A stretch of DNA of 34,663 nucleotides from Deltaproteobacteria bacterium (GTDB taxonomy: Bacteria > Myxococcota_A > Polyangia > Polyangiales > JADJMO01). This document shows, one piece after another, positions 4,504 to 29,878 of the stretch (its first letter is position 1; each line of letters starts with the position of its first letter). The DNA lies in the NCBI GenBank assembly GCA_022843175.1, contig JALHOE010000084.1, forward strand, positions 1 to 34,663, written 5' to 3'. The translations under genes were made by a program, and so were the position numbers. Below the pieces are notes generated by a model that saw only the letters and a program-made list of their open reading frames with translations, did not search any database and had not been told where the DNA came from.

Positions 4504-4862
4504 CCGAGCACCTTCGCGGCGAAGTGAGGGAACGCGACGAACGCAACGACCACGACCGTCGTAAGCCAGAGCAGGACACGCGCTGCAGTCCGTGAGCGCG
4601 GGGCTGGACAGTCGCACGTGTCCGCCGTCGCGCGCGGTCGCCGATACGCGAAGTAGAAGCCGGTCGACAACACGACAACGGTCGACGCTATCAAGTACGG
4701 CCGGTAGGGGTCGAGCGTCGTCAGCGCGACTCCCCCTCCGACGCCGACCAGCGCGAGCACCAGCGGACCGATGCAGCACGCGGACGCGAGGAACGCGGTC
4801 ACGATCGAAACGGCGCTGGAGGCGACGGTCCAGGTGTGATCACGCGAGCGACCTGCGGGCAT
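4500..4862 (-). CDS. merT: mercuric ion transporter MerT
   Basis: This is a 120-residue inner-membrane protein with three hydrophobic segments. The first carries the hallmark ASACCIGP (C29-C30), which takes Hg(II) from periplasmic carriers. Next comes a DPYRPYLI segment, then a cytoplasmic loop with a second Cys pair CDC (C83, C85), and a last hydrophobic segment ending in FPHF. All are typical of MerT. The ATG at 4862 is chosen because it starts just before the conserved region and lies two bases downstream of the +1 predicted from a sigma-54-type promoter. The stop overlaps the reductase start by four bases. Role: bring Hg(II) into the cytoplasm for reduction. Confidence 0.9.
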   Translation of the reverse strand: MPAGRSRDHTWTVASSAVSIVTAFLASACCIGPLVLALVGVGGGVALTTLDPYRPYLIASTVVVLSTGFYFAYRRPRATADTCDCPAPRSRTAARVLLWLTTVVVVAFVAFPHFAAKVLG

Positions 4863-4863
4863 G

Positions 4864-4891
4864 CCTCCGACGAGAGCATCGACCGGGCCAC
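4864..4891 (-). promoter_or_regulatory. putative sigma-54 promoter for merT-reductase
   Basis: Read on the minus strand, TGGCCC-N5-ATGCT has the obligatory GG-N10-GC spacing (the CC at 4888-4889 and the GC at 4876-4877 on the plus strand). It matches the -24/-12 consensus TGGCAC-N5-TTGCW except for two bases. The predicted start of transcription is near 4864, only about two bases before the merT ATG, which would make a nearly leaderless mRNA. Confidence 0.5.
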
Positions 4892-4932
4892 GCTGCGCGC
4901 CGCGGAAAGCCTGCCTCGCGACGACGGCGGAC

Positions 4933-4966
4933 TCCAAAGTGGAACTCCCCGTCCTTCCGAAATGGA
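4933..4966. promoter_or_regulatory. two dyad operators/enhancers in the divergent mer promoter region
   Basis: Two copies of a TCC-N5-GGA dyad, TCCAAAGTGGA (4933-4943) and TCCGAAATGGA (4956-4966), lie with centres 23 bp apart. They sit about midway between the two divergent sigma-54-like promoters, roughly 60-100 bp upstream of each predicted start. The same dyad recurs in front of the sigma-54 activator gene at 7885-7960. This is the expected position for upstream activator sites. Their assignment to that activator is inference. Confidence 0.6.
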
Positions 4967-4996
4967 GGGCTGCCCTCGAAGGACGCTGATTTCGCG

Positions 4997-5013
4997 TTGG
5001 CACCGCCGTTGCT
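4997..5013 (+). promoter_or_regulatory. sigma-54 (-24/-12) promoter of the merP-merB operon
   Basis: The sequence TTGGCACCGCCGTTGCT contains TGGCAC, a 5-bp spacer and TTGCT, with exact GG-N10-GC spacing (4999-5000 and 5011-5012). It is an essentially perfect match to the RpoN consensus. The predicted +1 is near 5024, three bases before the ATG of merP. It would need an AAA+ activator, and one is encoded at the end of the operon. Confidence 0.75.
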
Positions 5014-5026
5014 GTACGCAGGGAGC

Positions 5027-5362
5027 ATGCGCGTTCGATCGTGGATCATTGCTGCCGTCATCGGCGTGACCGGGACCGCCGGTCTCGGCATCGCCCTCGG
5101 TCGTGCGACGGGCTCTTCGTGCTGCGCGCCGCGCGCGACCAACCCGGCGAACGCGACCGCGACGATCGCCGTTCACGTCGATGGCGTCACCTGCGCCTCC
5201 TGCACGATCGGCATCCGGAAAGCGCTGAAGCAGCTCGATGGCGTCGGAAAGGTGACGATGAACGGGACCGACGCGGTCGTCTCGTACGATCCGGCGCGGG
5301 TCGATCCGCAGCGGATCATCGGCGCGATCGATAAGCTTGGGTACAAGGCAAGGATCGCATGA
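5027..5362 (+). CDS. merP: periplasmic/membrane-anchored mercury-binding protein MerP-like (HMA domain)
   Basis: This is a 111-residue protein. Residues 1-25 form a hydrophobic signal or anchor. An unusual Cys pair C32-C33 follows (GSSCCAP). Residues 45-110 are a heavy-metal-associated domain with GVTCASC (C56, C59), and the pattern of beta-alpha-beta elements ends in KLGYKA. This is the usual MerP/CopZ fold, which binds Hg(II) between two thiolates and passes it to MerT. No other start exists upstream. A GGGAG stretch lies only two bases before the ATG, and the predicted transcript start falls at that point. The stop overlaps the next gene by four bases (ATGA). Confidence 0.85.
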   Translation: MRVRSWIIAAVIGVTGTAGLGIALGRATGSSCCAPRATNPANATATIAVHVDGVTCASCTIGIRKALKQLDGVGKVTMNGTDAVVSYDPARVDPQRIIGAIDKLGYKARIA

Positions 5363-5859
5363 GCAAGAGCGACGCGCAGGACGGTTGCTGTGCAACGTCG
5401 CATGAAGCAAGCGGTGCGGCTGCGACCGCATGCCCTTCGTGCGGCGCCATGGGCCGAACCGTTCCTGACGTGACGATCTCGGCGATGCTCCCCCGCGATA
5501 CCGCGCTCCGGCTGCTTGGTCTCGAGCGCCGCTTCTGCAAGACGCCCTCGTGCTCGGTGCTGTACTACGGCGCCGACGGAAGGATGGTCGATAAGGGCGA
5601 AGCGCGCGTGCGGGTCGCGCTGAAGGAACGGACCCCGCCGACGACGATCTGCTACTGCTTCGACGTGTCCGCCGAAGATCTTCGTCGCGAGGTCCAAACG
5701 GTCGGACGCGCTCCGTCGGCGGAGCGGATCAAGGCCGAGGTCCGCGCCGGCAACTGCGACTGCGAGCGCAAGAACCCCTCCGGTGCCTGCTGCCTCGCCG
5801 AGATCAACGCGGTGGTGAAGCTCGCGAGCGCAACGCGGAAGAAGGACTGCTGTGGCTAG
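5359..5859 (+). CDS. Cys-rich CopZ-type [2Fe-2S]/zinc protein
   Basis: This is a 166-residue protein with fourteen cysteines: C10-C11, CPSC (25, 28), 60, 65, CYC (98, 100), CDC (133, 135), CC (144-145) and a C-terminal CC (164-165). The second half, from ICYCF to NPSGACCLAEIN, matches the Fe-S-binding fold of the BFD type. Together with the preceding zinc-type part it resembles the N-terminal region described for Archaeoglobus CopZ, which binds Zn and a [2Fe-2S] cluster. Such proteins occur beside metal transporters and may reduce or carry metal ions. It has no signal peptide, so it is cytosolic, and it sits between MerP and MerB. A role as electron donor or cytosolic Hg(II) acceptor is inference. 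Confidence 0.75.
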   Translation: MSKSDAQDGCCATSHEASGAAATACPSCGAMGRTVPDVTISAMLPRDTALRLLGLERRFCKTPSCSVLYYGADGRMVDKGEARVRVALKERTPPTTICYCFDVSAEDLRREVQTVGRAPSAERIKAEVRAGNCDCERKNPSGACCLAEINAVVKLASATRKKDCCG

Positions 5860-6652
5860 GACCGCTGTCGTTGTCTGCCTTCTGTGCGCTGCGTGTGGCT
5901 CCTCGACGCCCACCGCGTCGAGCGTCGCCGATGGCGGCGATGCAGCGCCTGCGGCGAGCGGACACGCCGCGCGCGGAGTCGTCCGCGACCTCGCGGGCAA
6001 TCCGGTGGTCAACATCTACGTGACGGTGAGCACGGAGTTCTGCGTGCCCGATCGTACGTCGCCGTCCGGCACGTTCACCGTGCGCAATGTCGCGCCCGGA
6101 GGCGCGAAGCGCCTGATCCTCTACGGGCCGACCGCGAAGAACGGCCCCTACGCCTCTCTCTCGTTCGCGTTCACCGGAGCGGACACGGCGGACTACGACT
6201 TCGCACGCCCGATCATCACGCCGAAGCTCGACGCGCCGCTCGCATTTCGCGCAGATGTCACGGAGCCGCAGAAGCTGACGACGGCCGACGGGTTCGCGAT
6301 CACGCTGCGCGCCGCCGATCTGCACGTCGAGGGCTTCGGCGACCCGAAGCTGTACGCGGTGCCGATCCCGCTCGATAAGGCGCCGCCGTTCGCCGCGGTG
6401 TCGGGTCTCCACGCGCTCTACGTGCTCGAACCGCTGCAGAGCACGATCGCGTCTGCCGCAGCGGTCGAATTCCCGAATCCGAAGGGTCTGGCCGTCGGCT
6501 CGAAGGTCGAGATCTTCCAGCTCGACTACTTGAAGGGCGAGCTCGTCGTGCGCGCCACCGGTCACGTGCGCGCGGACAGTAAGGTCGTGAGCGACGATGG
6601 CTCGGGGATCACCGAGCTCACGTGGGTCGGGTTCGCGCCCGCGAGTTCATAG
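5852..6652 (+). CDS. lipoprotein with a carboxypeptidase-regulatory-like N-terminal part
   Basis: This 266-residue protein starts at a GTG that overlaps the previous stop by eight bases. A GAAGGA ribosome binding site lies seven bases upstream. Residues 1-15 (MARTAVVVCLLCAAC) are a short lipoprotein signal with LCAAC lipobox. Residues 40-110 (GVVRDLAGNPVVNIYVTV... GTFTVRNVAPG) look like a carboxypeptidase regulatory/PEGA-type beta-sandwich. The rest is an unrecognised beta-rich domain. It is probably periplasmic or on the outer membrane. It is not a usual mer gene, and its role in the operon is unknown. Confidence 0.65.
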   Translation: MARTAVVVCLLCAACGSSTPTASSVADGGDAAPAASGHAARGVVRDLAGNPVVNIYVTVSTEFCVPDRTSPSGTFTVRNVAPGGAKRLILYGPTAKNGPYASLSFAFTGADTADYDFARPIITPKLDAPLAFRADVTEPQKLTTADGFAITLRAADLHVEGFGDPKLYAVPIPLDKAPPFAAVSGLHALYVLEPLQSTIASAAAVEFPNPKGLAVGSKVEIFQLDYLKGELVVRATGHVRADSKVVSDDGSGITELTWVGFAPASS

Positions 6653-6660
6653 GAGAAGTC

Positions 6661-7236
6661 ATGAGACGCATCGCATCGTTCATCATCATCGCGGCGGCAT
6701 CGGCCTGCGCGTCGAGCGCGCAGCAGCCATCGACGGCTGCCGTCGATGCCGCGCCGCCGACCGGCATCGCGGTGGGCAACCTCGCGCCGGACTTCTCGCT
6801 CACCGACAGCGACGGGCTCACTGTTCGCCTCGCGGACTTTCGCGGAAAGGTGGTGCTGCTCGAGTTCTCGGCGATGTGGTGAACGTCGTGCCGACGCCTC
6901 GTGCAGGCGTCCGAATCACTCCACACCGAACGGGGCGCCGAAGGGTTCTCGTCGCTCGGGATTCTCATCGAGAACACGACCGGCGATCCCCCGAGTGCGT
7001 CGGACGTGAAGACATGGATCAAGGCGTACGCGGTCACCTTCCCTGTGCTGGCCGATCCGGAGAAGGCGGTGTTCAACGTCTACGTGCCGTCGCCGGTGCT
7101 GCCGACCTCCTTGGTCATCGATCGCGCCGGCATCATCCGCATGCGTCTGCAGGGAACGACCGATGACACCGCGACCGAGGCAAAATTGCGTGCCGCAATC
7201 GACGAGGCGCTGAAGAGCAGCGCCTCCGGGGGATGA
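6661..7236 (+). CDS. TlpA/thioredoxin-like selenoprotein (UxxC), read through TGA 6880-6882
   Basis: Two frame-matched halves (6661-6882 and 6883-7236) form one 191-residue TlpA/peroxiredoxin-like protein if TGA at 6880 is read as selenocysteine. The N-terminus is signal- or lipoprotein-like (hydrophobic to C16). NLAPDFSLTDSDG (40-52) and RGKVVLLEFSAMW are the classic lead-in to a thioredoxin motif. The motif itself is W-U74-T-S-C77, where family members have WCxxC. After it, homology-like features continue: the PVLADPEK segment, the cis-Pro-like PTSLVIDRAG segment and a C-terminal helix. A SECIS-like hairpin follows the TGA. AGGAG lies before ATG 6661, and merB starts four bases after the stop. 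The expected role is a thiol/selenol oxidoreductase outside the cytoplasm. A selenolate could also bind Hg(II) directly. Confidence 0.8.
6893..6911 (+). promoter_or_regulatory. bacterial SECIS-like hairpin
   Basis: A perfect 7-bp stem GACGCCT/AGGCGTC (6893-6899 with 6905-6911) closes a five-base loop CGTGC. The loop begins 17 bases after the TGA and has G in its second position. These properties (stem length, small loop, a G among the first two loop bases, distance of roughly 16-37 bases) agree with the general description of bacterial SECIS elements that recruit SelB. It lies inside the coding sequence, as bacterial SECIS elements do. Confidence 0.7.
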
Positions 7237-7240
7237 GACG

Positions 7241-7876
7241 ATGGAAGGGAACATCATCACGCGTCTGGGAACCACGATCGCCCGCGACGCAGGCGGCGAC
7301 GCTCTGTTTCGCGCAGCGATCATCAGGCTTGCCGCCGGCGGTCTGCCGACCGCGTCGGAGCTCGCGACCGATCTCCAGTGGCCGGTCGAGCGCGTCGCGT
7401 CCTTGCTCGACGGCCTCCCTTCGATCGAGCGCGACGACCGAGGCCGCATCGTCGGCGCCGGGCTGACGACGCGCGAGACGCAGCACTCGTTTGAGATCGA
7501 CGGCCGGAAGCTCTTCACCTGGTGCGCGCTCGACGCGCTGATTTTCCCGATCGTGATCGGCTCGACTGCGCGGGTGTCCTCGCCGTGCGCCGCGACCGCC
7601 GCACCCGTCACGTTGGAAGTCACTCCCGACGCCGTGCGCTCGGTCGAGCCCGAGGCGGCCGTCGTGTCGATCGCGATCGCCGGCAACGCGTCCTGCGACG
7701 TGCGCCGCGCGTTCTGCGACCACGTGCACTTCTTCGCCTCCGAGGCCGCGGCTGCAGAGTGGCGGCGCCGCTATCCGGACGGCGCGGTGATGCCGATCGC
7801 CGATGCCTTCGTGCTCGCGAGGTCGCTGGCCGCGCACGTCTTCGCCGCGCCGACACGGGGGTGTTGCGGGAGCTGA
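7241..7876 (+). CDS. merB: organomercurial lyase MerB
   Basis: This is a 211-residue protein, the family's usual length. It has an N-terminal winged-helix-like part (residues 20-75), then the catalytic region with FTWCALDALIFP (C95 and D98), C116 and AFCDHVHFFAS (C159). These correspond to Cys96, Asp99, Cys117 and Cys159 of the enzyme from R831b, and all are conserved. MerB protonolyses the carbon-mercury bond of organomercurials and releases Hg(II) to the reductase. Here the C-terminus adds a Cys pair (C208-C209, RGCCGS), which might help hand over the metal. The start lies four bases after the selenoprotein stop. Its presence makes this a broad-spectrum mercury locus. Confidence 0.93.
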   Translation: MEGNIITRLGTTIARDAGGDALFRAAIIRLAAGGLPTASELATDLQWPVERVASLLDGLPSIERDDRGRIVGAGLTTRETQHSFEIDGRKLFTWCALDALIFPIVIGSTARVSSPCAATAAPVTLEVTPDAVRSVEPEAAVVSIAIAGNASCDVRRAFCDHVHFFASEAAAAEWRRRYPDGAVMPIADAFVLARSLAAHVFAAPTRGCCGS

Positions 7877-10077: not shown

Positions 10078-11070
10078 TCACGCAACAACGGGCAGATCGT
10101 GCAGGCTGGCAGCGATTTTTTTGGCGCGGTCGAATCGCCGATCGTAGCGCGATGTCGTGACCGGCGAGGCATGCCCGGCGGTCGCCTGCACGGTCGCGAG
10201 GTCGATCCCGTTCTCCAGACAGTTGCTCACGAACGACCGCCGACAGTCGTGAGCGGTGAAGTGGGCAACACCAGCGCGCCGCTGCAACACGCGGAGTCGC
10301 TCGGCCACGGCCTGATCGGTCATGCGCCGACAGACGGTCCGGTCGGCACGGTTGACCGGCAGCAGAAGCGGACCGGCGGCACCACCTCGACGCGCAACCC
10401 AGGCTGCAACGACGGCGGTGGCCACGGTCCCGAGATAGAGCGTGCGTTCCTTCGCACCCTTGCCGTGCACGAGGAGCCGGCCGGTCGAGACATCGAAGTC
10501 ATCGACGTCCACCGAGACCACCTCCGAGCGCCGGAGACCGCCGGCGTAGAGCAGCGCGAGGAGCGCCGCGTCGCGGGCGCCGGAAGCAGTGTCGGGATCA
10601 CACGCCGTGAAGAGCGCGCGGAGCTCTGCAGCGGAGAGAGCGCGTCCGCGCACGACGCGGGATCCGCGGACCGCTTTCACGAGGTTCACGCGCGCGAGCT
10701 CGTCGGAATTGATGAGCCCGAGCTGGAACGCCGCGCGCATCACGCCTCGAAGCGCAGCGAGGATCCGGTTGCCGGTCGCGGGTGCATACCGGTTGGCGAG
10801 CGCGCTCCGCACGGCCGTCGCGTGCGCGAACGTGACTGCGTGCCAGGGCACCGCACCGATGTCGTCGCCACCGGTCAGGAGCGTCGCGACGGTCCGCAAC
10901 GCGGCCTGCATCGCGCGATGCGATCCGGGTGCGAGCGACGAGAGGTAGAGCGCCGCCGGGTCCGTTTCCGACGCGATCAGCGTCGGGTGGGAGACGGTCG
11001 TGACCGGCACCGCCGCCGACGACGTGGCGGGTAGGTCGGTTGTGAGAACCGCACTTCTCGTAAGTAACAT
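10078..11070 (-). CDS. tyrosine recombinase, XerC/XerD-like
   Basis: This is a 330-residue site-specific recombinase. It has an N-terminal SAM-like core-binding domain (about residues 35-135) and a catalytic domain with all the expected residues: R180 in AGGLRRSE, K204 or K207 in VHGKGAKER, H274-x-x-R277 in HDCRR, H300 in AGHASPVTTSRY, and the nucleophile Y309. The ATG at 11070 follows a weak GGGG. The longer frame upstream has a low-complexity Arg-rich character and is unlikely to be translated. Its place near the left side of the accessory region suits an integrase/resolvase role. It could also be a plasmid-type dimer-resolution enzyme. Confidence 0.88.
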   Translation of the reverse strand: MLLTRSAVLTTDLPATSSAAVPVTTVSHPTLIASETDPAALYLSSLAPGSHRAMQAALRTVATLLTGGDDIGAVPWHAVTFAHATAVRSALANRYAPATGNRILAALRGVMRAAFQLGLINSDELARVNLVKAVRGSRVVRGRALSAAELRALFTACDPDTASGARDAALLALLYAGGLRRSEVVSVDVDDFDVSTGRLLVHGKGAKERTLYLGTVATAVVAAWVARRGGAAGPLLLPVNRADRTVCRRMTDQAVAERLRVLQRRAGVAHFTAHDCRRSFVSNCLENGIDLATVQATAGHASPVTTSRYDRRFDRAKKIAASLHDLPVVA

Positions 11071-13961: not shown

Positions 13962-14260
13962 GCTTGCAGGAGAAACAAAAGGACAATCGATTTTCGACGC
14001 CGCCACACCGTACGCGCACGTGACGTCGATATCCTGGCGCTCGACGGCGCCACGGAGACTCGAGAAGCGGCCAATTCTCGAGCCCGCGGCCTGCGTGCGG
14101 GGCCCGCAGAGGCGCTCGCTTTCGGTTTGCTCGAAGTCTCGGTCCAGGAGTTCGTGGCCGGTCGGACGTTCCGGTCGGACGATGCACTCTCGTGCGCGGC
14201 ACGCGAAGACACCGAGCCGGCCGGCGGAGCCCGACTGCGCGCCGCGGTGTACAGGTCGTG
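13962..14260. other. 300-base stretch without a confident gene
   Basis: No ATG gene is convincing here. One plus-strand frame is open from 13848 to a TGA at 14262-14264. That TGA overlaps the GTG start of the ATPase gene (GTGA), which hints at a small coupled leader ORF. The only starts in that frame are TTG 14127 and GTG 14154, the latter with an AGGAG just upstream. The stretch also contains the promoter side of the ArsR-like gene. Confidence 0.35.
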
Positions 14261-15637
14261 GTGAAAGACACACCGCCCAACCCCACTCCCTCCGCGTACG
14301 ACGACACAGTCTCCGACGACCTCGTGATCGAGCTCTTGAATGACCTGCATGTCCACCAGATTCGTCGACAGGCCGAAGAGGACATCGCGCCATTCTGGGA
14401 GGCCGCGCGCGTGCAGATCGGGGCATGCACCGGAGACGTCGGCTCCCGCGGTGTGAGCAAGGTCGTGTACGCGCGTGCTCGGGAAGCACTTGAGTCGGTT
14501 CTCGTGCGTCGCCGCAAAGGCGAGCTCGCCGGTTTGCCCCCGAAGACGAGGCTGTCGAGAGACCGATGGCTCGCCGCGTTCGGCGTGCGCGCCGAAACGC
14601 CGCCGGCGATCGCCCCCACGGCGGCATCACCCGCGGCGATTGCATCGAATCCGTCACTCTCTCTGATCGGACCGGCCGAGCTGCTGAAGCTTCCCGCGTC
14701 GCCGCCGTGGCTCATCGAAGATCTCTGGGTCGGCGAGGGCGTGGGGATCATCGGCGCGGCGCCCAAGTCCTACAAGACGTGGATCGCCATCGAGATGGCG
14801 ATCGCGGTCTCGTCCGGGACCCCGTGTTTCGGTCGGTTCGAGGTACCGACCCCCGGTCCTGTGATCGCGTACTTCGCGGAGGACTCCCTTCCCGCCATTC
14901 GCGAGCGAATTCTGGCCGTCTGCAGCGCGCGGGGACTCGAGCTCGAGCGCCTGCCGCTTCAACTCGTGGCGGCCAGCGTGCTTCGTCTGGACTCGCTCGC
15001 GGACCAGGATCGCCTTCGCGAGGTCGTCGAGCAGACGCGCCCCCGATTGCTCGTCCTCGATCCACTTGTTCGGCTTCATGGCGGCGACGAAAACGACTCC
15101 GGCCACATCGGTCGGCTGCTCGGTTTCCTCCGGACCCTGCAGCGTGATTACGGCACATCGATCGTGCTCACGCATCACAACCGCAAGACGCATTCGAGCC
15201 GTGCGCCCGAGGGCCAGGGGTTGCGCGGGTCCGGGGACCTGCACGCGTGGACGGATACCGGGCTCTTCCTCCGGCGACGAAGCGGTGTCGTTACCCTGCG
15301 GGTCGAGCACCGTTCCGCCGCGTCGCCGGAGCCGATGCGAGTCGCGCTCTCGCGTGATCCCGCGCCTCACCTCCAGGTGTCCGATCTCGTGGCGGAGGAC
15401 GAGGACGACGGTCCGATGCAGAGCACGGAGTCGCTCGAGGTGCGAGCGCACCGGGCGATCGCAGAATCCGAGGCACCGCTCAGCCGAGGCGCATTGCGTG
15501 CCGTCCTCCGGTGCCGCAACGAGTCGCTCACGACAGTGCTCCGGGCTCTCGTCGCGCAAGGGAGGGTGCGCCACGTCGACGGCCGGTGGGCGGCCCGCGA
15601 GACATCGTCCGCGCCATCACGCCCGTGCGATCCCTGA
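14261..15637 (+). CDS. RepA-like AAA_25 helicase/ATPase with C-terminal winged helix
   Basis: This is a 458-residue protein if it starts at GTG 14261. Residues 155-360 form a RecA-like ATPase: Walker A GAAPKSYKT (165-173), Walker B LLVLDPLVRL (D267), then SIVLTHHNRKT as sensor. The spacing and the P-K-S-x-K-T form of Walker A match the AAA_25/RSF1010 RepA group of hexameric helicases found on plasmids and phages. The C-terminal 70 residues (ALRAVLRCRNESLTTVLRAL) look like a winged helix. It probably drives replication or maintenance of the element. It overlaps a possible leader frame by four bases. Confidence 0.75.
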   Translation: MKDTPPNPTPSAYDDTVSDDLVIELLNDLHVHQIRRQAEEDIAPFWEAARVQIGACTGDVGSRGVSKVVYARAREALESVLVRRRKGELAGLPPKTRLSRDRWLAAFGVRAETPPAIAPTAASPAAIASNPSLSLIGPAELLKLPASPPWLIEDLWVGEGVGIIGAAPKSYKTWIAIEMAIAVSSGTPCFGRFEVPTPGPVIAYFAEDSLPAIRERILAVCSARGLELERLPLQLVAASVLRLDSLADQDRLREVVEQTRPRLLVLDPLVRLHGGDENDSGHIGRLLGFLRTLQRDYGTSIVLTHHNRKTHSSRAPEGQGLRGSGDLHAWTDTGLFLRRRSGVVTLRVEHRSAASPEPMRVALSRDPAPHLQVSDLVAEDEDDGPMQSTESLEVRAHRAIAESEAPLSRGALRAVLRCRNESLTTVLRALVAQGRVRHVDGRWAARETSSAPSRPCDP

Positions 15638-16811: not shown

Positions 16812-16949
16812 CTCCACCCGCCGCGCTCGTCCCGGCCGTCGACTGCCCTCATGCGGTTCTGTCGTCGGCTGCTGGGTGTTCGTTTTGGTGACGTCCACGC
16901 GATCATCTCTCGTCAGCAAAAGGTCCACATGGGGTACGCTGCGTGACGA

Positions 16950-18632
16950 ATGCTGGATCGCGCGACCGTGGCTCGCATCCGGCGCCTTGCAGCGAAGGGT
17001 CACGGCACGGTCGTCATCGCGCGCGAGATCGGTGCCGCCCCGAAGACGGTCCGTCGCTACCTGACGTCAGCCGAAGCCGACGTGCAGATTCGCCCGCGGG
17101 CGCGTCGGCTGACGCCGGATCAGGTCGCGATCGTGATGGAGGTGTTTCGCGAGCAGGCCGGCTTCAACGCTTCGCTCACCGCGAAGGTCGTCTCGGCGAG
17201 GGGCATCGTAGCGAGTGCTCGGACCATCCATCGGGTGATCGCGTCGAACTGGAAGGGGCGGCGGCCGCGGCGCCGGCCAGTGCGCGTCGCGACGACGGCC
17301 TGCGACTCGTTTGCGTTTACGTGGGCGGGAAAGGCGGCAGCACTCGAAGCAGCGCAGCGACCGACTGAAGGCCGACTCGTCAGGCGGGGCACTGCGGCGC
17401 AGAAGGTGCGCCGCGGTCACGAGCTGATTGTGGCCGACAATCTGGACTCCCTGAAGCTCCTCCGTCAGACCCGGGGCGCGTTCGTGAAAGCGGCGTACCT
17501 CGATCCACCCTACGGGACCGGCACGAAGTTCACGTACGACGACCGATTCGGACCGGCTGGTGGCGGGGACCGGCGGGACGCCAGAAATGCGGCGTGGCTC
17601 TCGATGTTGTTCCCGCGGCTGGTGGTCCTTCGGGACCTGTTGCTCGCCAACGGAGTCGCGGTGATCTCTATCGACGATCGGCACCTGCACCACGTCCGCA
17701 TGCTCATGGATGAGGTCTTCGGCGAGGAGCAGTTCGTTGCGTGCATCACGGTGCGCTCGAACCCTCGGGGCAAGAGTCTGCGGCGCCACGTCGCCACGAA
17801 CCACGAGTTCCTCGTTGTGTACGCAAAGGACCGGCGCGGGTCGGGCGTGATGGGCGGGGTGCGGCTTCACGCCGAAGACGTCGCACGTCACTACCGCCAC
17901 GCCGACAAGCGGGGCCGCTACGCCCTCTACCCACTGCGAGGTACCGATCACCGTCGGCGCCGCCAGGACCAGGAATCGATGTTCTACGCCCTGTTCGTCG
18001 ACCCGAGGACGGGCGAGGTCTCGACGCGTAGAGCGGGGCGCTACACGGTGACGGTCTACCCCGAGGCCACCGGCGGTGAGGGTGACGGCGTGTGGACGTG
18101 GGGGCGCGCGCGGGCGGCGAGCGAGACGAACCACCTGATCGCGAAGCGGTCCTCGCGGGGAATCTGGCGCATTTTCCGGAAGGTCTACGCCGAGTCCGAT
18201 GCCGCTTACTCGCGGGCGACCAGCATCTGGAGCGAGAGGACCTTCTCGTACGCGGCCGGCAAAAGGGCCGTCGACGCCGCGGTCGGCGAGGGCGTGTTCC
18301 AATTCGCAAAACCGGTCGACCTGCTGAGCCGCATCGTCGAGGTCACCACCCGCCGGACGCATCGCGACGTCGTGCTGGACGTGTTCGCCGGGTCGGGGAC
18401 GCTCGCCGAGGCGCTGATCGCGCTCAACCGCGACGACGGTGGGGACCGCCGTGTGATCTCGCTGCAACAGGCGGAACCGACACCGGAGGGTTCGGCCGCC
18501 CGCGAGGGCGGCTACCGAACCGTCGCAGACATCTGCCGGGCGCGGATCCGACGCGCATGCGCGTTGTCGACGCCGAAGACGTCGTTCGAGACCCACGTCG
18601 TTGTGAAACCGATGCCGCGCCGAGCGACCTAG
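16950..18632 (+). CDS. N6-adenine DNA methyltransferase (type III Mod-like) with N-terminal transposase-like HTH
   Basis: This is a 560-residue protein. Residues 155-510 are a beta-class amino-methyltransferase: catalytic motif DPPYGTGTKF (185-194) comes first and the SAM-binding LDVFAGSGT (about 476-484) comes near the end, an order shared with type III Mod subunits. A long variable region (about 270-430) is likely the target-recognition part. Residues 1-110 carry a helix-turn-helix (VARIRRLAAKGHGTVVIARE) and a second HTH-like part ending in a basic stretch. This recalls the N-terminus of IS21-type or IS630-type transposases. No restriction subunit is adjacent, so it is an orphan methylase. 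The start has a weak ribosome binding site. Confidence 0.8.
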   Translation: MLDRATVARIRRLAAKGHGTVVIAREIGAAPKTVRRYLTSAEADVQIRPRARRLTPDQVAIVMEVFREQAGFNASLTAKVVSARGIVASARTIHRVIASNWKGRRPRRRPVRVATTACDSFAFTWAGKAAALEAAQRPTEGRLVRRGTAAQKVRRGHELIVADNLDSLKLLRQTRGAFVKAAYLDPPYGTGTKFTYDDRFGPAGGGDRRDARNAAWLSMLFPRLVVLRDLLLANGVAVISIDDRHLHHVRMLMDEVFGEEQFVACITVRSNPRGKSLRRHVATNHEFLVVYAKDRRGSGVMGGVRLHAEDVARHYRHADKRGRYALYPLRGTDHRRRRQDQESMFYALFVDPRTGEVSTRRAGRYTVTVYPEATGGEGDGVWTWGRARAASETNHLIAKRSSRGIWRIFRKVYAESDAAYSRATSIWSERTFSYAAGKRAVDAAVGEGVFQFAKPVDLLSRIVEVTTRRTHRDVVLDVFAGSGTLAEALIALNRDDGGDRRVISLQQAEPTPEGSAAREGGYRTVADICRARIRRACALSTPKTSFETHVVVKPMPRRAT

Positions 18633-18692: not shown

Positions 18693-19076
18693 TCACATGA
18701 GCACCATCCCCGCGCACTCGTACACGTACCAGCTCGAGTCGCTCGCCTCGTTCTGTAGCCATTGCGGGCCGTCCCGCAGACGTTCGACCTCCGCCGCGAC
18801 CGCGCACTCGTCGGCGGAATTAAGTGAGGGCGGCAGCGCGTACACGTAGGCGTTGAGCTCGCCGCCTCTGCTCGGCGCCTGGGTCACGAAGTAGCGCCGT
18901 CCGGACGGGCGTCGCTGGCCCGCCGCGAACTGCTCGATCGCCTCTTCGAGCGATTCGTTCTTCGTTGGAGTCACGCAGCCCGCCATGCACCAGCAGGGCC
19001 ACATGAGCGTGCGATAGCCGCGGTCGGCCATCCATCGCAGGGCGTCGAGGAACGTCATCACGGAAGTTGTCGTCAT
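18693..19076 (-). CDS. orphan protein, paralogue of the gene at 27091-27471
   Basis: This 127-residue protein shares a sequence scaffold with the 126-residue protein encoded at 27091-27471. Common words include MTT..S.MT.L..L.WM..RGYR.L, WPC, RRYF, APS..G, VY.LP..L and LRDGPQ. The pattern is of two copies of one orphan family in one element. It is short, soluble and rich in aromatic residues, and it has many Cys residues (WPCWCMAGC), unlike its partner. Function unknown. It is divergent from the 19245-19960 pair and reads against the methyltransferase end. Confidence 0.7.
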   Translation of the reverse strand: MTTTSVMTFLDALRWMADRGYRTLMWPCWCMAGCVTPTKNESLEEAIEQFAAGQRRPSGRRYFVTQAPSRGGELNAYVYALPPSLNSADECAVAAEVERLRDGPQWLQNEASDSSWYVYECAGMVLM

Positions 19077-20099: not shown

Positions 20100-20528
20100 A
20101 TGCGACGGCCTGAGATCATCCCGCGGCTTCGCAGAACCTCGACGAGGTGCTCACGCCGAGACGTGTCGGCGCAGTCATTCCGCTTCGTCAGTGCGGCACG
20201 ATGGCTGTTTTGGAGGCACGCCACGGGTCGTGACGTGGAGCTCGATCAGATCGACGTGCAACCGTTCGCGCGTGCCGCCGACGCAGCGCTGAGGAGCATA
20301 GCTCGCCGCCAGGGCGTCGGCCTGAAGTGCGCGTCCGAGCAGGACGTCGATGCGCTTCTCGGACGCGTGCTGCGCGGCGAGCTGGAGCCGCATCCTACGG
20401 AACCTTATCCGTGGGAAATCGACGACGCGGACTTGGCAGCCGTCGAGACTCCAGCGGTGAGCGCAGACGGAGTCGCGCCCGTGCTGGAGATCGTCGACGG
20501 CGCCCCTGGTGGTGTGCGCCGTCACTGA
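20100..20528 (+). CDS. hypothetical protein
   Basis: This is a 142-residue protein with an AGG five bases before ATG 20100. The middle section (VDALLGRVLRGELEP, PYPWEIDDADLAAVE) is acidic and helical. No recognised domain, signal or membrane segment. The complementary strand also has an open frame, so coding here is moderately rather than firmly supported. It lies directly upstream of the reverse-transcriptase operon, with a 118-bp gap, and could be part of the same transcription unit. Confidence 0.4.
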   Translation: MRRPEIIPRLRRTSTRCSRRDVSAQSFRFVSAARWLFWRHATGRDVELDQIDVQPFARAADAALRSIARRQGVGLKCASEQDVDALLGRVLRGELEPHPTEPYPWEIDDADLAAVETPAVSADGVAPVLEIVDGAPGGVRRH

Positions 20529-20646
20529 CGCGTCCGATGGCGACGGGGTTGCCCTGTCGAAGCTCCGAGCAGTGCTTCCGGTGTAGAGGGGACAAGAGCC
20601 CTACAACGACGTACCGCTGGCGATGAAGAAGACCGAGAGAACGACG

Positions 20647-21744
20647 ATGTCCACACCGACGGAGCTGACGAAAGACTGGCGAATCGAGCGACGCGATCGT
20701 CGACTCGAACAGGCCGTGCTGCCGTCGCCGCTTCGTCGGATCGTGCGCAGCGTGCGCCGCGATGATCTCGCGAGGGCGCTGCTCAGTGCGATCGACGACC
20801 GCGTGTTCACCATCGCGAGGGAACGCGGCCTCGTGCAAGTCGAGCGTCGGGTCGGAGATCCCGACCGCACATACGTGCGGCGGTGCGACGAGCACGCGAT
20901 CCTCATCGAGCTCGCGGCGCGCCCGGACATCGTCGGCTGGCTCCGGCGCGACGCTCAGACGATGCTCCGCGCAGAGCATACGGCGCGGTTGGAGCCATCC
21001 ATCACGCCGACCGTCGCGGAACGCACGCGATTTCACTGGAGCGTCGAAGGTGATGTCCTCGTCGTCGCTAGCGACGCCGGTCTCGGTTCTGCGCGCTACC
21101 TCGAAGGAGAACCCGACGGGTGGGCGCTCTGGGTCGCCGACCAACTCACGGGCAGTCTTGTTGACCCTCGCCCGCGGGTTTCGGTCGTCGGTGCCGGGGT
21201 GGGCGGCATCGTGCGTGCGCTCACGGTCACAGGGCTCAGGAAGTTCCGAGTCGAGGAGTGCGACTGGATCCGCAGTGAGCCGACGGCCCTCAACGCACGA
21301 TTTGCCGTTCGTCGAGGCCAGGACGCACTCGAGCCCGGGCACGACGCCGTCGTCTTGGTGTTCCCCTCCTGCGCGACGCCCGCAGCCTCGCAACACCGGC
21401 GAATCTACGTGCCCGACGGGGTCGCGAGCGCCGTCGAGGATCCTTCGCGGCTCGGTCGGAAAAAGTGGCTCCGCTCGCTCTCGGGGTACCTCGCGCTCGC
21501 GATGCAGGCAGTCCGCCCCGACCGTCGCGGCTACTTCCTGATCCCGACCAGCGTGCGCGATGCGCAGGGATACCTGTCGGACCCGCAGCTCGCCGCCGAC
21601 GTCGAGGACATCGTCGTCGCGACGACCGGGCTGCGCGTCGTCGAGAAGAAGTGCGTCGAGGAGGTGTCGCCCGTCCGGTGGCCGTTCGTCGGTACCGCGA
21701 GATCGAACCGATTCAGCTTCATCATCGAGCGGGAGCCCTTCTGA
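20647..21744 (+). CDS. accessory protein of the RT operon, unknown, possible degenerate Rossmann/MTase-like fold
   Basis: This is a 365-residue protein. GAGAG lies eight bases before ATG 20647, which is preferred over ATG 20623. Its stop overlaps the RT start by one base (TGATG), so the two are translationally coupled. From residue 175 it reads VSVVGAGVGGIVRALT, then DAVVLVFPSCATP, then a KWLRSLSGYLALAMQAVRPDRRGYFLIPTS stretch and a C-terminal RSNRFSFIIE. The order (glycine-rich loop, VLVFPSC in the place of a catalytic motif, then a terminal beta-strand) recalls a class I methyltransferase that has lost its catalytic motif. That is inference. No name can be given. Its partner is clearly the RT. 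Confidence 0.6.
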   Translation: MSTPTELTKDWRIERRDRRLEQAVLPSPLRRIVRSVRRDDLARALLSAIDDRVFTIARERGLVQVERRVGDPDRTYVRRCDEHAILIELAARPDIVGWLRRDAQTMLRAEHTARLEPSITPTVAERTRFHWSVEGDVLVVASDAGLGSARYLEGEPDGWALWVADQLTGSLVDPRPRVSVVGAGVGGIVRALTVTGLRKFRVEECDWIRSEPTALNARFAVRRGQDALEPGHDAVVLVFPSCATPAASQHRRIYVPDGVASAVEDPSRLGRKKWLRSLSGYLALAMQAVRPDRRGYFLIPTSVRDAQGYLSDPQLAADVEDIVVATTGLRVVEKKCVEEVSPVRWPFVGTARSNRFSFIIEREPF

Positions 21745-23966
21745 TGCCGCGCCACCCCTTCGAGCCGAGGGACGCGATGCGGCTCCTCCGCGATCCGCAC
21801 CGCATCACGTTCGCTTGCGACGTCGCTATCAACGCGGCGTTCGCGCGGGCCGACGCACGCACCCGTGACGCCCACGGACGGCGCCTCTGCGATGTCGTAC
21901 GAGGCGCCGCCGACGTTGCCGACATGGCAAAGGACATCGCCGGTCTCGTGGACCTCGGCTCCAGGGATCTGGAAGCACGACTCCGCGACGAACCAGTGCG
22001 CCTCGGAGTCGTCCCAGCGAGTGGTCGAAGGGCCAGAGAGGTCGGGGTCGCGACGTACCGGCGGCGCTGTTTCTCGAACCTCGTGACTGATGTCCTTTCG
22101 ACGACCAGCGACCGTCTGCTCAGCCCCATCGCGCGGGCGTACCGCGCCGGCAACGAGCGCGCGGTGCAGAACACGGTGCTCGAGGTGGCGGGCGCTGTCT
22201 CGAAGGGCAACATCGTCTTCTGTGCGAAGCTGGACTTCGTTCGATACTTCGAGGTGATCCAGTGGAGGGCCATCGAAATGGCACTCCTGCACTACGGGTA
22301 CGAGCCGCGGTTCATCGAGCTCGTCCTTGCCCTCGTGCGGTGCCGTGTCGTTCGCATCTCCCGCGGCCGCCGCGACGACCACCACACGTGGCGAGGTCTC
22401 CAGCAAGGGCTGCCGGAGTCCCCGGTGATCGCCAACATGGTGCCCTTCGCGCTGGACGAGGCGCTGGAGGACGTGGTCGCGAAGGGCGCGCACATCGTGC
22501 GGTACTGCGACGACATCTTCATCGGCGGGCCGACGAAGTGTTCGGTGAGGGACGCGGTCCGGCGGGTGCTGGAGTGGGCTCGGCGCCAAGGGATTCCGGT
22601 CAAGGATGATCGCCCGAGTCGCTCACGCGAACCGAAGAGGGCGGCACAGGCCATCGGGCATCACCCGCATCGGCGGACCCTCTCGTGGAACATCGCGCTC
22701 GACAAGTTGGTGTACAGGGTCCAGCAGCGTCGGATCTCGCTGCTCGGCGCCGAGATCGATCAAAACGCGGGGATCCATATTCCGAAGGAGGTGCTGACCC
22801 GGAAGATCGACGAGATCGCAGAGGTCGTGGGCAAACTCGCGAGCCGTCCCGTCGTCGAGGGAACGTCACGCTACGGCGGTGGGGCGGGCTGTGACGCCTA
22901 CGACGACGCCGACCTCGAAGCGAAGATCGACGGTCTCATCAACTACTGGCACTACCTCGATCCCGACGAAGCGGAGTTCGTTCGACGTACCGTCGAGAAG
23001 GCGATCGAGAAGAGATTTCCCGTCACCCGTGCACCTCGTCGTCCCGGGTCTGGGATTGTTTGGCGCGCCCGGCTCTGGGGCGACCAGACGAGCACCACGT
23101 CGGAGGCCATGATCCCGCAAGGGGCCATGGGCGTGACTGCTCATTGTGACCTGAGCCCCGACCTGGGGATCCATCAAGGGACATCGACGACCCCTTCGGG
23201 GCAATCGACCTCCCATGGGGGAGACTCTCTGAATCCCGTCGGAACACGGGATCAGGAAGAGAACACCCAGGACGAGAGCAAAGGACTGGAGCCCACTCGA
23301 TGGGGGGAGAGATCCTCCCATCGGATGGCGGACGATCTCCATGAGGAGAGCGTCAGCGACCTGGAGCCATGCCCCGAAGGGGGTGATGGCGAAGGGGAGC
23401 TGTCGGTTCACGGGTACTCGCACCCGCGTGAATCGTCTGAGGGATGCAGAGCCAACGTTCCTGCGCGGAGCAGTGGCTACACGTCATCCAGGTTCCTCGT
23501 GTCGTCCCTCGAGAGAGTCCTCGGGCATCTCGATGGATCAGATTACGAGTCCGATCGGGGGGAGCCTCCCCTCCCGCCGGACCTCGCGGACGCCCCCATG
23601 GTCCACGTCGCTGTTGCCCGAGCCGAGAGCGGCGGATGCATCGTCTCGCAGGCGACCGTCTTCCGCGGCGAGGTCATCGGCCACCCAACCTTGAGAGACG
23701 TGAGCAGCCGGCCGGAGGTAGCGGAGCTTGCCGCGATCCTGCAGGTCGTCGAGCAGCTTCGCGCCACGCGCGTGGTCGTGGCCCTGCCGACAACGCGACT
23801 TGCAAAACACCTCCTGCAACCCGGCAAGGCGTTTCGAGCGCCCATCCGTTTCGGACTTGTCGAGCGGCTCCACGAGGTCGCACGCGAGCGCGCCGTCGAT
23901 CTCCACATCCTCGGCGGCGTTCCGGTGCCCGATGTGATCCGTGTGCTCGTCGAGGCTCGACCGTAG
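21744..23966 (+). CDS. reverse transcriptase with C-terminal RNase H-like domain and structured internal linker
   Basis: This is a 740-residue ORF. The RT domain is visible at about residues 105-430: a finger segment AYRAGNERAVQNTV, motif A KLDFVRYFEV (D164), motif B QGLPESPVIAN (221-231), and motif C YCDD (254-257). Motif C is intact for catalysis. Motif B and the lead-in differ from DGR enzymes (which have a SQxFAN form). Residues 455-610 are a Ser/Glu/Gly/Asp-rich stretch whose DNA is full of hairpins (see the ncRNA entry). Residues 619-740 resemble an RNase H fold: VHVAVARAESGG, PEVAELAAILQVVEQL with the conserved Glu, and a final PDVIRVLVEA. The first and third catalytic acids are absent, so this domain is probably inactive. 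The ATG is fixed by a one-base overlap with the upstream gene. The family is not assigned. Confidence 0.85.
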   Translation: MPRHPFEPRDAMRLLRDPHRITFACDVAINAAFARADARTRDAHGRRLCDVVRGAADVADMAKDIAGLVDLGSRDLEARLRDEPVRLGVVPASGRRAREVGVATYRRRCFSNLVTDVLSTTSDRLLSPIARAYRAGNERAVQNTVLEVAGAVSKGNIVFCAKLDFVRYFEVIQWRAIEMALLHYGYEPRFIELVLALVRCRVVRISRGRRDDHHTWRGLQQGLPESPVIANMVPFALDEALEDVVAKGAHIVRYCDDIFIGGPTKCSVRDAVRRVLEWARRQGIPVKDDRPSRSREPKRAAQAIGHHPHRRTLSWNIALDKLVYRVQQRRISLLGAEIDQNAGIHIPKEVLTRKIDEIAEVVGKLASRPVVEGTSRYGGGAGCDAYDDADLEAKIDGLINYWHYLDPDEAEFVRRTVEKAIEKRFPVTRAPRRPGSGIVWRARLWGDQTSTTSEAMIPQGAMGVTAHCDLSPDLGIHQGTSTTPSGQSTSHGGDSLNPVGTRDQEENTQDESKGLEPTRWGERSSHRMADDLHEESVSDLEPCPEGGDGEGELSVHGYSHPRESSEGCRANVPARSSGYTSSRFLVSSLERVLGHLDGSDYESDRGEPPLPPDLADAPMVHVAVARAESGGCIVSQATVFRGEVIGHPTLRDVSSRPEVAELAAILQVVEQLRATRVVVALPTTRLAKHLLQPGKAFRAPIRFGLVERLHEVARERAVDLHILGGVPVPDVIRVLVEARP
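23107..23571 (+). ncRNA. candidate structured RNA embedded in the RT reading frame
   Basis: Ten hairpins lie within 465 bases. Stems, in order: 23107-23130 (5+4 bp, GCAA tetraloop), 23156-23168 (CCCC/GGGG), 23184-23208 (TCGA and CCCC/GGGG, TTC loop), 23210-23223 (5 bp), 23229-23255 (10 bp with one bulge, CGGAAC loop), 23298-23323 (11 bp, one G-U, GAGA tetraloop), 23336-23349 (5 bp), 23366-23390 (5+4 bp), 23405-23434 (7+4 bp with a 2-base bulge) and 23559-23571 (5 bp). Two are GNRA tetraloops. Third-position base use here is less GC-biased than in the flanking codons. Boundaries are set by the outermost stems seen. It could be an RT-associated RNA, or a structured mRNA section. Confidence 0.6.
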
Positions 23967-23970
23967 AAAT

Positions 23971-23989
23971 CGACGGGCTGCCCCCGTCG
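23971..23989 (+). terminator. hairpin after the RT gene
   Basis: A perfect 7-bp stem CGACGGG/CCCGTCG (23971-23977 with 23983-23989) with a five-base loop starts four bases after the RT stop and is followed by a short pyrimidine run (CCTTTC). It probably ends the RT operon. Confidence 0.6.
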
Positions 23990-27090: not shown

Positions 27091-27471
27091 TCATACGCAG
27101 ACGCGGCCGACGCCGGCAGCTACATACGCATAGTAGTAGCTGTCGGTCTCGCGATCTTGGCTGTGCTGCGGGCCATCGCGAAGCATCTCGATTTCCCGCC
27201 GCTCGCCAAGCACATCCGCCGGGTCAAGATCGGCCGGTAGCACGTAGACCCACGCGCAGATGTCTCCGCTCTTGCTCGGGGCCTCGTCGATGAAGTAGCG
27301 CCGACGGCGCCTCGATCGGTCGTCGCCGCGCCGCAGCGCGTCCGCGAGGGGCTCGGTCTGAGTCGGGTCGATGGTCCCTTCGATCTGCATGCACGGCCAG
27401 ATGAGCTCGCGGTAGCCGCGAGCGATCATCCACTCGAGACACGCGAGCCAGGTCATCGGCGAAGTCGTCAT
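27091..27471 (-). CDS. orphan protein, paralogue of the gene at 18693-19076
   Basis: This is a 126-residue protein with a good GGAGGA ribosome binding site before ATG 27471. The upstream extension of the frame is not supported. It matches the 18693-19076 protein along its whole length, with the same order of words (MTTSPMTW, RGYRELIWPC, RRYF, APSKSGD, VYVLPADLDPAD, LRDGPQ). The C-terminal tail is Tyr/Ala-rich (DSYYYAYVAAGVG). Both copies read leftward. The family is not recognised. Possible ancestral duplication inside the element, or two transferred members of one family. Confidence 0.7.
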   Translation of the reverse strand: MTTSPMTWLACLEWMIARGYRELIWPCMQIEGTIDPTQTEPLADALRRGDDRSRRRRRYFIDEAPSKSGDICAWVYVLPADLDPADVLGERREIEMLRDGPQHSQDRETDSYYYAYVAAGVGRVCV

Positions 27472-27711
27472 GTCCTCCCTACACCGGCGATCACCAAGCA
27501 CAGCGCACCCGAGGTGCGAATTATCGTGATCGGTGGGATTTTTTTGCCGGGCAAGAATTTTTGAACCGCGGGGCCTCGGGTTTCCCCATTTGGCCATCCT
27601 GCCGATCCATTTCCACGCGCATCACGGATCCGCCGCGGACCGATGCCCGCGGAGTGTCGAAGAAATAACCGATCGGTTTCGCGGAGAGGGTCCGCAGTCT
27701 TCGACCGAAGG

Positions 27712-28105: not shown

Positions 28106-28445
28106 CGTCATGCAGGCGATGCGCTGGTCCAAATCGAAGGCCTACCGTGAGCTTCGGGCCGCCGGAGCGGTGATCGTACTCGGCACGCTCCGCATCGAGC
28201 GGGAACGGTGGGAGCAGTACCTGAAGGAAGGGACGCAGAAGTCATGTCCGAGCACCTCCGAAAACGCGGCGATGTCTGGTACGGCACGGTCAACGTCCAC
28301 AACCCCGATGGCAGCGTCACGCGCATCGAACGGTCGACGGGCTGTAGCGACAAGGCGGCAGCTCGGACCGTTCGCGCCGGCTGGGAGCGCGAAGCCGCCG
28401 ATCCCCATCACGCAGCCGCGCGCACGACGATCAACGACGCGCTGA
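28074..28445 (+). CDS. excisionase-like helix-turn-helix protein
   Basis: This frame begins at GTG 28074, with GAGAG four bases before. Residues 1-56 (VPLVEFVSARDVMQAMRWSK, AYRELRAAGAVIVLGTLRIE, WEQYLKEG) form an AlpA/Xis-type winged helix such as directs excision. Beyond residue 58 the frame runs on another 65 residues, overlapping the recombinase start by about 200 bases, and looks like an out-of-frame shadow (Ser/Thr/Arg-rich). The true gene may therefore be a short excisionase whose stop lies later than needed, or it may continue into the integrase by frameshift. The position right before an integrase is typical of xis. Confidence 0.55.
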   Translation: MPLVEFVSARDVMQAMRWSKSKAYRELRAAGAVIVLGTLRIERERWEQYLKEGTQKSCPSTSENAAMSGTARSTSTTPMAASRASNGRRAVATRRQLGPFAPAGSAKPPIPITQPRARRSTTR

Positions 28446-29878
28446 CGCTGCTGCTCGAGGAACGCGCCTCGCGCGTGCCCGAGAACGATGGCGCAGCCGA
28501 GACCGTCGAGTACTACCGCTACAAGGTCGGACACCTCGTTCGCGTCTTCGGCCACGACACGCCGGTCAGTACGTTCCGGACTTCCGCACCATCGTGGCGG
28601 TACATCGACCAGCGCCGCCACGAGGGCGCGCACACTCGAACCATCGCCAAGGAACTGAAGGTCCTCCGTACCGCCCTGCACCTCGCAAGAAGCCGTGGTG
28701 CGTTCTCCGGCGATCCCGATGTCGTCTACCCCGCCGATTTCGTACCCGCCGAGGACGACGAGCCGGGACGTTCACTGACTCGGCAGGAAGCTTTGAAACT
28801 CTGGCCGCTTCTCGCCCCGGATGCCGCAGCGGCCATGGCATTCGCCCTCGCGACCGGAGCCGAGATGTCGGCGTTGAAGCATGCGCGTCGCGAGGACCTC
28901 CCGAACGACATCGACGCGGCGATGAGCATCCTGGTCCGCGGGACCAAGAACGAGCACCGCGCCGCGCACGTGCCGATCGTCACCGACGAGCAGAAGACAC
29001 TTCTCCGCTACGTCGCCCTCCACGCCGGGGGAAATGACGGCGCGCTGTTCGGTCCGTCGCTGTCGAACCTCCATCGTGCGGTGTCGGCGGCGTGCGACGA
29101 GGCGGGCATCGAGCACGCGAGCCCTCACGATTGGCGCAGAACGGCCGGACAATGGTTGATCGATCTCGGCGCGGCACTCGAGCTCGTCTCGCGATTCATG
29201 CGTCACGCCGACACCCGCATCACGGAGACGGTCTACGCGCGCATTCGCGACGAGGACGTGGCCGATCGGATCCTCGACTCGATCGATCCGCGCTACGCGC
29301 GCGTCGCTCACAAGTCGCGTCCAAAGAAGCCCGTCGTCGAGACCATCACGTCCGTGCCGTCGCCGAAGAAGGCCCGCGAGACGCTGTACCGCGTCGGCGA
29401 TGTCGAGCGATCGCTCTCGGGTTGGGCGCAAGCGTCCGGCGTCTCGAAGGCGACGCTCCATTACCGACTCAACAACGGCCTCACGATGGCAGAGGCGATC
29501 GGGCGTGGCCGTCGTGAGCTCCGGGCGACTTCCGCTGTCAGTCGTTCAAAGACTGCCGCACCGGTGCCGCAGACAGGAAGGACTCCAGGGCACTCAGAGG
29601 ACACAAACGACGAAGGGTCGCTCTCGCGACCCCTAGAAAACCTGTCGATCTTAGCGCGCCCAGGACGATTCGAACGTCCGACAACTGGTTCCGTAGACCA
29701 GTGCTCTATCCAGCTGAGCTATGGGCGCAACCCCCCGAAAGGGGACGCGCAAGTTACCGCGACGGCTCCGTATGTCAAGCCAACTGCGCGAGCGTGTCGG
29801 CGGCCATCTCGCCGACCATCGGATCGTCGCGGAGCGCCTCGAGCTTTGGCCGGGCCTCGGAGAGGGCGGTGCGGTTGA
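28244..29878 (+). CDS. tyrosine recombinase (integrase) running into tRNA-Arg antisense
   Basis: This frame is 544 residues long from ATG 28244 (the upstream 12 codons to 28208 are not needed). The first part, with the GDVWYGTVNVHNPDG segment, is an arm-type DNA-binding domain. Residues 100-185 are a core-binding domain. The catalytic domain has K in GTKNEHRA, H295-x-x-R298 in HDWRRTAG, H321 in MRHADTRI and nucleophile Y331. However, the box I arginine is not seen: the segment reads TGAEMSALKH with Glu207 where Arg is usual. A second HTH (about 389-421) resembles those of phage HNH proteins. From about 470 the frame reads through antisense tRNA-Arg (RPGRFERPTTG...) to 29878, so the real end is junction-dependent. 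Confidence 0.75.
   Translation: MSEHLRKRGDVWYGTVNVHNPDGSVTRIERSTGCSDKAAARTVRAGWEREAADPHHAAARTTINDALTLLLEERASRVPENDGAAETVEYYRYKVGHLVRVFGHDTPVSTFRTSAPSWRYIDQRRHEGAHTRTIAKELKVLRTALHLARSRGAFSGDPDVVYPADFVPAEDDEPGRSLTRQEALKLWPLLAPDAAAAMAFALATGAEMSALKHARREDLPNDIDAAMSILVRGTKNEHRAAHVPIVTDEQKTLLRYVALHAGGNDGALFGPSLSNLHRAVSAACDEAGIEHASPHDWRRTAGQWLIDLGAALELVSRFMRHADTRITETVYARIRDEDVADRILDSIDPRYARVAHKSRPKKPVVETITSVPSPKKARETLYRVGDVERSLSGWAQASGVSKATLHYRLNNGLTMAEAIGRGRRELRATSAVSRSKTAAPVPQTGRTPGHSEDTNDEGSLSRPLENLSILARPGRFERPTTGSVDQCSIQLSYGRNPPKGDAQVTATAPYVKPTARACRRPSRRPSDRRGAPRALAGPRRGRCG
29655..29728 (-). tRNA. tRNA-Arg(ACG)
   Basis: The minus strand gives a full cloverleaf. The acceptor stem GCGCCCA pairs with TGGGCGC, the D arm is GCTCAGCTGGATAGAGC, the anticodon arm is CTGGT-CTACGGA-ACCAG, and the T arm is GGACGTTCGAATCGTCC. 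The anticodon is ACG (Arg). The 3' CCA is not encoded; the discriminator is G (complement of 29655). The 3' end faces the accessory segment to the left and the integrase frame runs into it, so this tRNA is the probable attachment site. Confidence 0.9.

Follow-up and report, generated by a model that had tools for sequence, protein, structure and literature searches.

The DNA analysed in this study, hereafter the window, is a stretch of 34,663 nucleotides that makes up the whole of contig C84 in a 9.75-Mb high-GC genome. At 16950..18632 its forward strand encodes a 560-aa protein, here called the fusion and its gene mod, in which a helix-turn-helix (HTH) domain is joined to an orphan type III-like adenine methyltransferase, an assignment drawn from Pfam, NCBIfam, PADLOC, alignment, AlphaFold and Foldseek. 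A second copy of mod, 59% identical, occupies the same place in a syntenic element of this genome, on the sister contig C56. The syntenic set of C84 and C56 comprises two tyrosine recombinases, ArsR-, Xre- and PadR-like regulators, a RecA-like ATPase, mod, a 373-aa protein, a reverse transcriptase (RT) and others. In the window the element core includes, all on the forward strand, the RecA-like ATPase (AAA_25; 14258..15637; 68% identical in the sister), the conserved 373-aa protein (20623..21744) and the RT with which it is paired (21678..23966; about 70% identical in the sister); in both elements mod lies upstream of this same-strand RT operon. The far end of the syntenic core holds an XerC-like tyrosine recombinase (10078..11010, reverse strand; 85% identical in the sister), and at the tRNA end stands a tyrosine integrase (28244..29653, forward strand; Pfam Phage_integrase, 4.4e-8; PHROG integrase, 3.1e-32), the start codon of which is uncertain, its open reading frame running into the tRNA. 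The integrase adjoins tRNA-Arg(acg), the integration site (29654..29728, reverse strand), and in the sister element it adjoins tRNA-Phe; both are therefore tRNA-integrating elements, and the placement of the fusion on a mobile element in an earlier, preliminary description of this DNA was correct. No repeat of the tRNA-Arg attachment site was present inside the window.

Relatives elsewhere in the order, in other contexts, were found for two sets of the core genes searched, the RT pair and the RecA-like ATPase, and for no others. The RT and the upstream 373-aa protein, which has no known family, form a two-gene module in both elements (window 20623-23966), and this module recurs at 25-36% identity, without the methylase, in two other genomes of the order (L109 6843-10123; L110 8370-10681). 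The C-terminal part of the RT appears RNase H-like by eye, and the families closest to this RT, those of group II introns and retrons, score far below the cut-offs. Relatives of the RecA-like ATPase, at about 44% identity, stand beside an apparent transposase gene and a second ATPase gene (L142 7072-10327, L143, L144 and L145), which suggests that these loci are a three-gene transposon module. We also note that the sister element has received an IS21 insertion, an istA/istB pair next to its integrase side (L009 1-2325); its IstA is of a different subgroup, with an N-terminus 30% identical.

The methyltransferase domain (residues 121-537; 17310..18560, forward strand) contains an internal TRD, the usual seat of methyltransferase sequence specificity. 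Residues 179-495 match Pfam N6_N4_Mtase (4.5e-24), and the top PADLOC match for the fusion is the type III methyltransferase (3.7e-74). Its motifs, DPPY (17502-17513, residues 185-188) and DVFAGSG (18378-18398, residues 477-483), follow the beta-class order of type III Mods, and the features that define a beta-class Mod, namely DPPY, then FxGxG, with an internal TRD, are all found in the fusion. Since the fusion keeps all the residues that are invariant in a 35-row alignment of Mod relatives, the enzyme is probably catalytically active. The PDB relatives of this part are Mod (6k0w), Mbo45V (7dsu) and EcoP15I Mod (4zcf), and the same three head the Foldseek results. The preliminary description had taken the protein for a type III Mod-like methyltransferase, and the Pfam and PADLOC matches, the motif order and the alignment agree with that reading.

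In a quick tree the nearest branch is formed by solitary Nocardioides methyltransferases (95 SH-aLRT; L017, L022 and L031), which are about 36% identical to the fusion and likewise short and without Res, but are chromosomal and have no HTH. In three Nocardioides genomes these solitary type III-like methylases lie close to glgC among similar genes, and they are apparently domesticated orphan Mods in their own right.

With the type III Mods 4zcf (EcoP15I), 6k0w and 7dsu (Mbo45V) the fusion shares the beta-class methyltransferase core, the internal TRD, the catalytic motifs and the fold, and it departs from them in having an IS21 HTH for the NTD and in lacking both the CTD and Res. EcoP15I Mod is laid out as an NTD (14-60), a methyltransferase domain (62-262 and 390-516), a TRD (263-384) and a CTD (539-644), in which the NTDs help to build the dimer interface and the CTD of ModA touches Res (PMC4490356). 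The alignment to EcoP15I Mod begins at about 42-52 and, for the sister protein, stops at Mod residue 514; the Res-contacting CTD (539-644) is therefore missing. Typical relatives open with the short Mod NTD, the place of which is taken in the fusion by the IS21-like domain. When the window and C56 were searched by phmmer with P1 Res as the query, neither yielded a Res homologue, and no cognate endonuclease was found in either. The same query was positive in 54 of the 83 loci with a relative, many of the negative loci being cut by contig ends, and a search for Res in the whole genome, run without a positive control, was also empty. The original view of the gene as an orphan with no adjacent restriction gene is borne out by these searches, which likewise turned up no Res elsewhere in the operon. 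An ordinary type III restriction-modification system, which would have both Res and the CTD, is rejected, as the CTD is missing and these searches found no Res.

The N-terminus had been read initially as an IS21/IS630-like DNA-binding domain that a domain search could place, and that search returned the N-terminal part of the NCBIfam IS21 transposase model for residues 10-134 (9.1e-8; 6.0e-8 for the sister copy). The tandem HTH occupies residues 1-104 (16950..17261, forward strand; HTH-1 4-39, HTH-2 56-102), and over these residues the identity to IstA N-termini in 183 genomes of the same order reaches 40-43%, with a best E of 1.4e-16 for a 43% match over residues 1-100. The matched IstA proteins are genuine IS21 transposases, with the DDE domain downstream followed by istB. 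The AlphaFold model places helices at 4-15, 20-27 and 31-39 (unit 1) and at 56-68, 74-83 and 90-102 (unit 2). In the IstA cryo-EM structure HTH-1 spans 1-39 and HTH-2 spans 55-104, and DNA is contacted by R31, K32, T92 and K95 (PMC10122671). The spacing of the two HTH units is the same in the fusion, which has P31, K32, T92 and R95 at the contact positions, so that the last three are kept or similar. A Foldseek search with the N-terminal model placed PAX paired domains, IstA and Tc3 on top, all with weak E-values; a Z-score structure search with the HTH model gave generic HTH and paired-domain matches only, at a Z of about 7, and did not list IstA. From the NCBIfam match, the IstA identity, the HTH spacing, the contact residues and Foldseek we conclude that, judged from sequence and predicted fold, the N-terminal domain is transposase-derived and specifically IS21-like. 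The transposase part of the first reading thus stands in favour of IS21, and the IS630 part, which scored below IS21, does not. In the fusion the HTH is followed by the methyltransferase, and no match to an rve or DDE catalytic domain was found in it.

In a pattern-limited scan of 84,980 species genomes, no Mod with this N-terminus was found among the best 80 loci kept, and none was found in 377 genomes of the phylum; the 50,697 phages and 72,556 plasmids searched gave no match spanning 80% of the query. Across the 80 best relatives no Mod match reaches into the N-terminal domain, which speaks against the domain being a general feature of ordinary type III Mods; its presence in such Mods had been named in the preliminary description as a finding that would refute the reading given there. 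One seeming full-length match (L079) proved to be a separate Xre gene upstream. An IS21-methylase fusion was not described in the open-access literature searched.

Comparison of the two copies of mod gives 62% identity for the HTH, 62-66% for the methyltransferase, 63% for the TRD and 24% for the linker. By NG86 dN is 0.33 and dS, which is saturated, is 1.6, with 58% of third codon positions differing; the HTH residues that contact DNA are identical. By these measures the HTH and methyltransferase halves are both under selection in the two elements. Another account of the protein would be a plain orphan modification enzyme that shields the element from restriction in new hosts, the HTH being a passenger of chance fusion. 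Orphan methylases are indeed common on mobile elements, phages and plasmids are among the carriers of type III-like Mods, and the nearest branch consists of a solitary methyltransferase; however, the retention of the HTH at 62% with identical contact residues, and a conserved 17/17 site upstream of the gene, make this account improbable.

That site lies 21 bp before the ATG. Ahead of mod, the noncoding DNA of the two elements is diverged save for an identical 17-bp block, GTCAGCAAAAGGTCCAC, which stands 21 bp before the ATG in both and which we designate the right arm of a candidate operator (16912..16928, forward strand; 17/17 identical in the sister). An inverted copy matching at 13/17 positions, the candidate left arm (16876..16892, reverse strand), lies upstream at a start-to-start distance of 36 bp here and 35 bp in the sister (P 0.0005 and 0.001, respectively, against shuffled upstream DNA). 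The exact 17-mer has two copies in the 9.75-Mb genome, none in the other genomes of the 377-genome phylum set and 0 in viral contigs. No sigma-70-like promoter was recognised upstream of mod.

The candidate operator resembles the termini of IS21. In IS21 elements with a fusion-like IstA the left-end repeats are GCGWCAGYAAAACTGACCCC, 23 bp apart, which is the spacing reported for IS21. The repeat half GTCAGYAAAA matches the candidate operator, and the second half has diverged and gives no match alone. A position matrix was built from IS21 terminal repeats of other genomes only, using the columns GWCAGYAAAA with or without the second half, columns that were picked after the resemblance had been noticed. 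When the IS21 matrix is run over the roughly 69,000 strand positions of the window, the right arm ranks 1st and the left arm 2nd, and the sister right arm ranks 1 in C56. With the full 20-column matrix the left arm comes first in the window, and with matrices that include columns 12-13 (CT after AAAA) the right arm comes second. Among 400 column-permuted matrices the top two matches never both fell upstream of mod, and the top match fell there in both elements once; we note that the two elements are homologous, so their upstream sites are not independent. The matrix scan found the inverted pair upstream of mod only, with nothing of similar strength elsewhere and no flanking IS21-type terminal repeats, nor did the element show repeats of the iteron kind or HTH sites in large number.

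The sole strong candidate binding site in either element lies at the presumed promoter of mod itself, which favours autoregulation. The other regulators of the element (ArsR-, Xre-, PadR- and MarR-like) could, alternatively, own the upstream site. The preliminary description had instead proposed a self-targeting methylase; in its fuller form, the HTH would tether the enzyme to the element, and methylation of adenines near the operator or the ends would switch excision, replication or expression of the RT operon. It is in keeping with such a role that the HTH and methyltransferase have been kept together under selection and that in each element the RT operon follows mod on the same strand. A further sequence common to both, CTCGACCGTARAAATCGACGGG, lies at the RT stop codon (window 23957-23974; C56 19575-19592), resembles half an IS21 terminal repeat and is a possible second HTH site. 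This second, partly IS21-like site at the RT 3' end (GACCGTARAAATCGACGG) leaves room for a wider targeting of element DNA. Against this, no strong site was found at the element ends or at other genes, and the TRD is intact and 63% identical between the copies, from which ordinary methylation of a motif would be expected. With the only strong candidate site at the mod promoter, self-targeting of the element's DNA in general was not borne out, nor was a control of its transposition or replication, and we consider the tethered switch unlikely.

A third possibility is that the fusion is directed at IS21 itself, binding the terminal repeats and blocking or methylating them so as to keep IS21 out of the element. 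Its N-terminus is closest to IstA and the candidate operator half-matches IS21 repeats, as this would require, but the sister element carries the istA/istB insertion, the candidate operator has already drifted from the IS21 repeats, and the matching IS21 subgroup was not detected in the source genome. We regard such antagonism as very unlikely.

The reading we prefer, and hold to be reasonably probable on the present sequence evidence, is that the promoter of mod contains an inverted operator, similar to terminal repeats, to which the captured IS21 HTH binds, making the fusion an autoregulated orphan adenine methylase. In this scheme an orphan N6-adenine methyltransferase would have arisen from the type III Mod lineage by exchange of the Mod dimerisation NTD for the terminal-repeat-binding tandem HTH of IS21 IstA and by loss of the Res-contacting CTD. 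The HTH would then bind the inverted pair of sites shortly before the start codon of mod, each site matching roughly half of an IS21 terminal repeat, and the fusion, bound as a dimer, would regulate its own gene, most likely by repression, so that methylation may be held at a low, element-set level, as with M.SsoII. For this scheme we infer binding and the sign of regulation, as well as methylation activity, a target motif and a benefit to the element. We further speculate, more tentatively, that the IS21 domain was captured with its terminal-repeat-derived site, or before that site evolved, and that the methylase thereby became a site-tethered epigenetic switch of an RT-carrying element.

The closest functional parallel may be the bifunctional methylases M.SsoII / Ecl18kI; the N-terminal domain of M.SsoII binds a palindromic sequence of its intergenic region, an interaction that represses the gene and also prevents methylation by the enzyme (PMC6100179). 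In both cases an N-terminal HTH is joined to a methylase, and the promoter of the gene has a palindromic site found in that system alone, which in the fusion is an inverted candidate site; however, M.SsoII/Ecl18kI is a C5-cytosine enzyme with a cognate endonuclease and a C-protein-like HTH, whereas the fusion is an N6-adenine orphan with a transposase HTH. The IS21 IstA N-terminus (8b4h, 8q4d; IstA of L147 and L149) shares with it the tandem HTH, the same spacing and up to 43% identity, together with a terminal-repeat-like upstream site in the same orientation. In contrast to IS21, the fusion has neither a DDE domain nor IstB, and its site is an inverted pair rather than direct repeats 23 bp apart. 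SETMAR (Hsmar1-SET) likewise combines a captured, paired-like transposase DNA-binding domain with a methyltransferase, but is a eukaryotic protein (histone) methyltransferase and its enzyme is not homologous (PMC9062482). The fusion would be M.SsoII-like in its working without being a relative of M.SsoII; it is Mod-derived without being part of a type III system, and equipped with an IstA DNA-binding domain without being a transposase. If true, this would be a case of bacterial transposase-domain domestication in which a protein domain and a DNA site, both traceable to one insertion-sequence family, have been joined to a DNA-modifying enzyme, and it would mark out a route from a restriction system to an orphan epigenetic regulator through loss of the Res-docking domain and gain of an operator-binding domain. 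The sequence of the candidate operator is at hand, making the proposal immediately testable.

Several other features of the window and genome were observed. From reading alone, the genes at 3157-7876 (reductase, MerT-like, metal-binding and organomercurial-lyase-like ORFs) form what we take to be a mercury-resistance-like cluster. Two paralogous small proteins of unknown family are encoded on the reverse strand (18693-19076 and 27091-27597), and the sister also has two copies. A gene at 24574-25641 matches phage family PHROG 5931, of unknown function (4.4e-41), and was not seen in the sister. On contig C1, the tRNA-Arg 3' end recurs in two 50-bp copies accompanied by integrase remnants (6877-6927 and 20449-20501; L107 and L108); the 13.5-kb stretch between them, which includes a SocA-like gene and a gene resembling an anti-phage dCTP deaminase (PADLOC 1.7e-147), is probably a further element located at that tRNA site.
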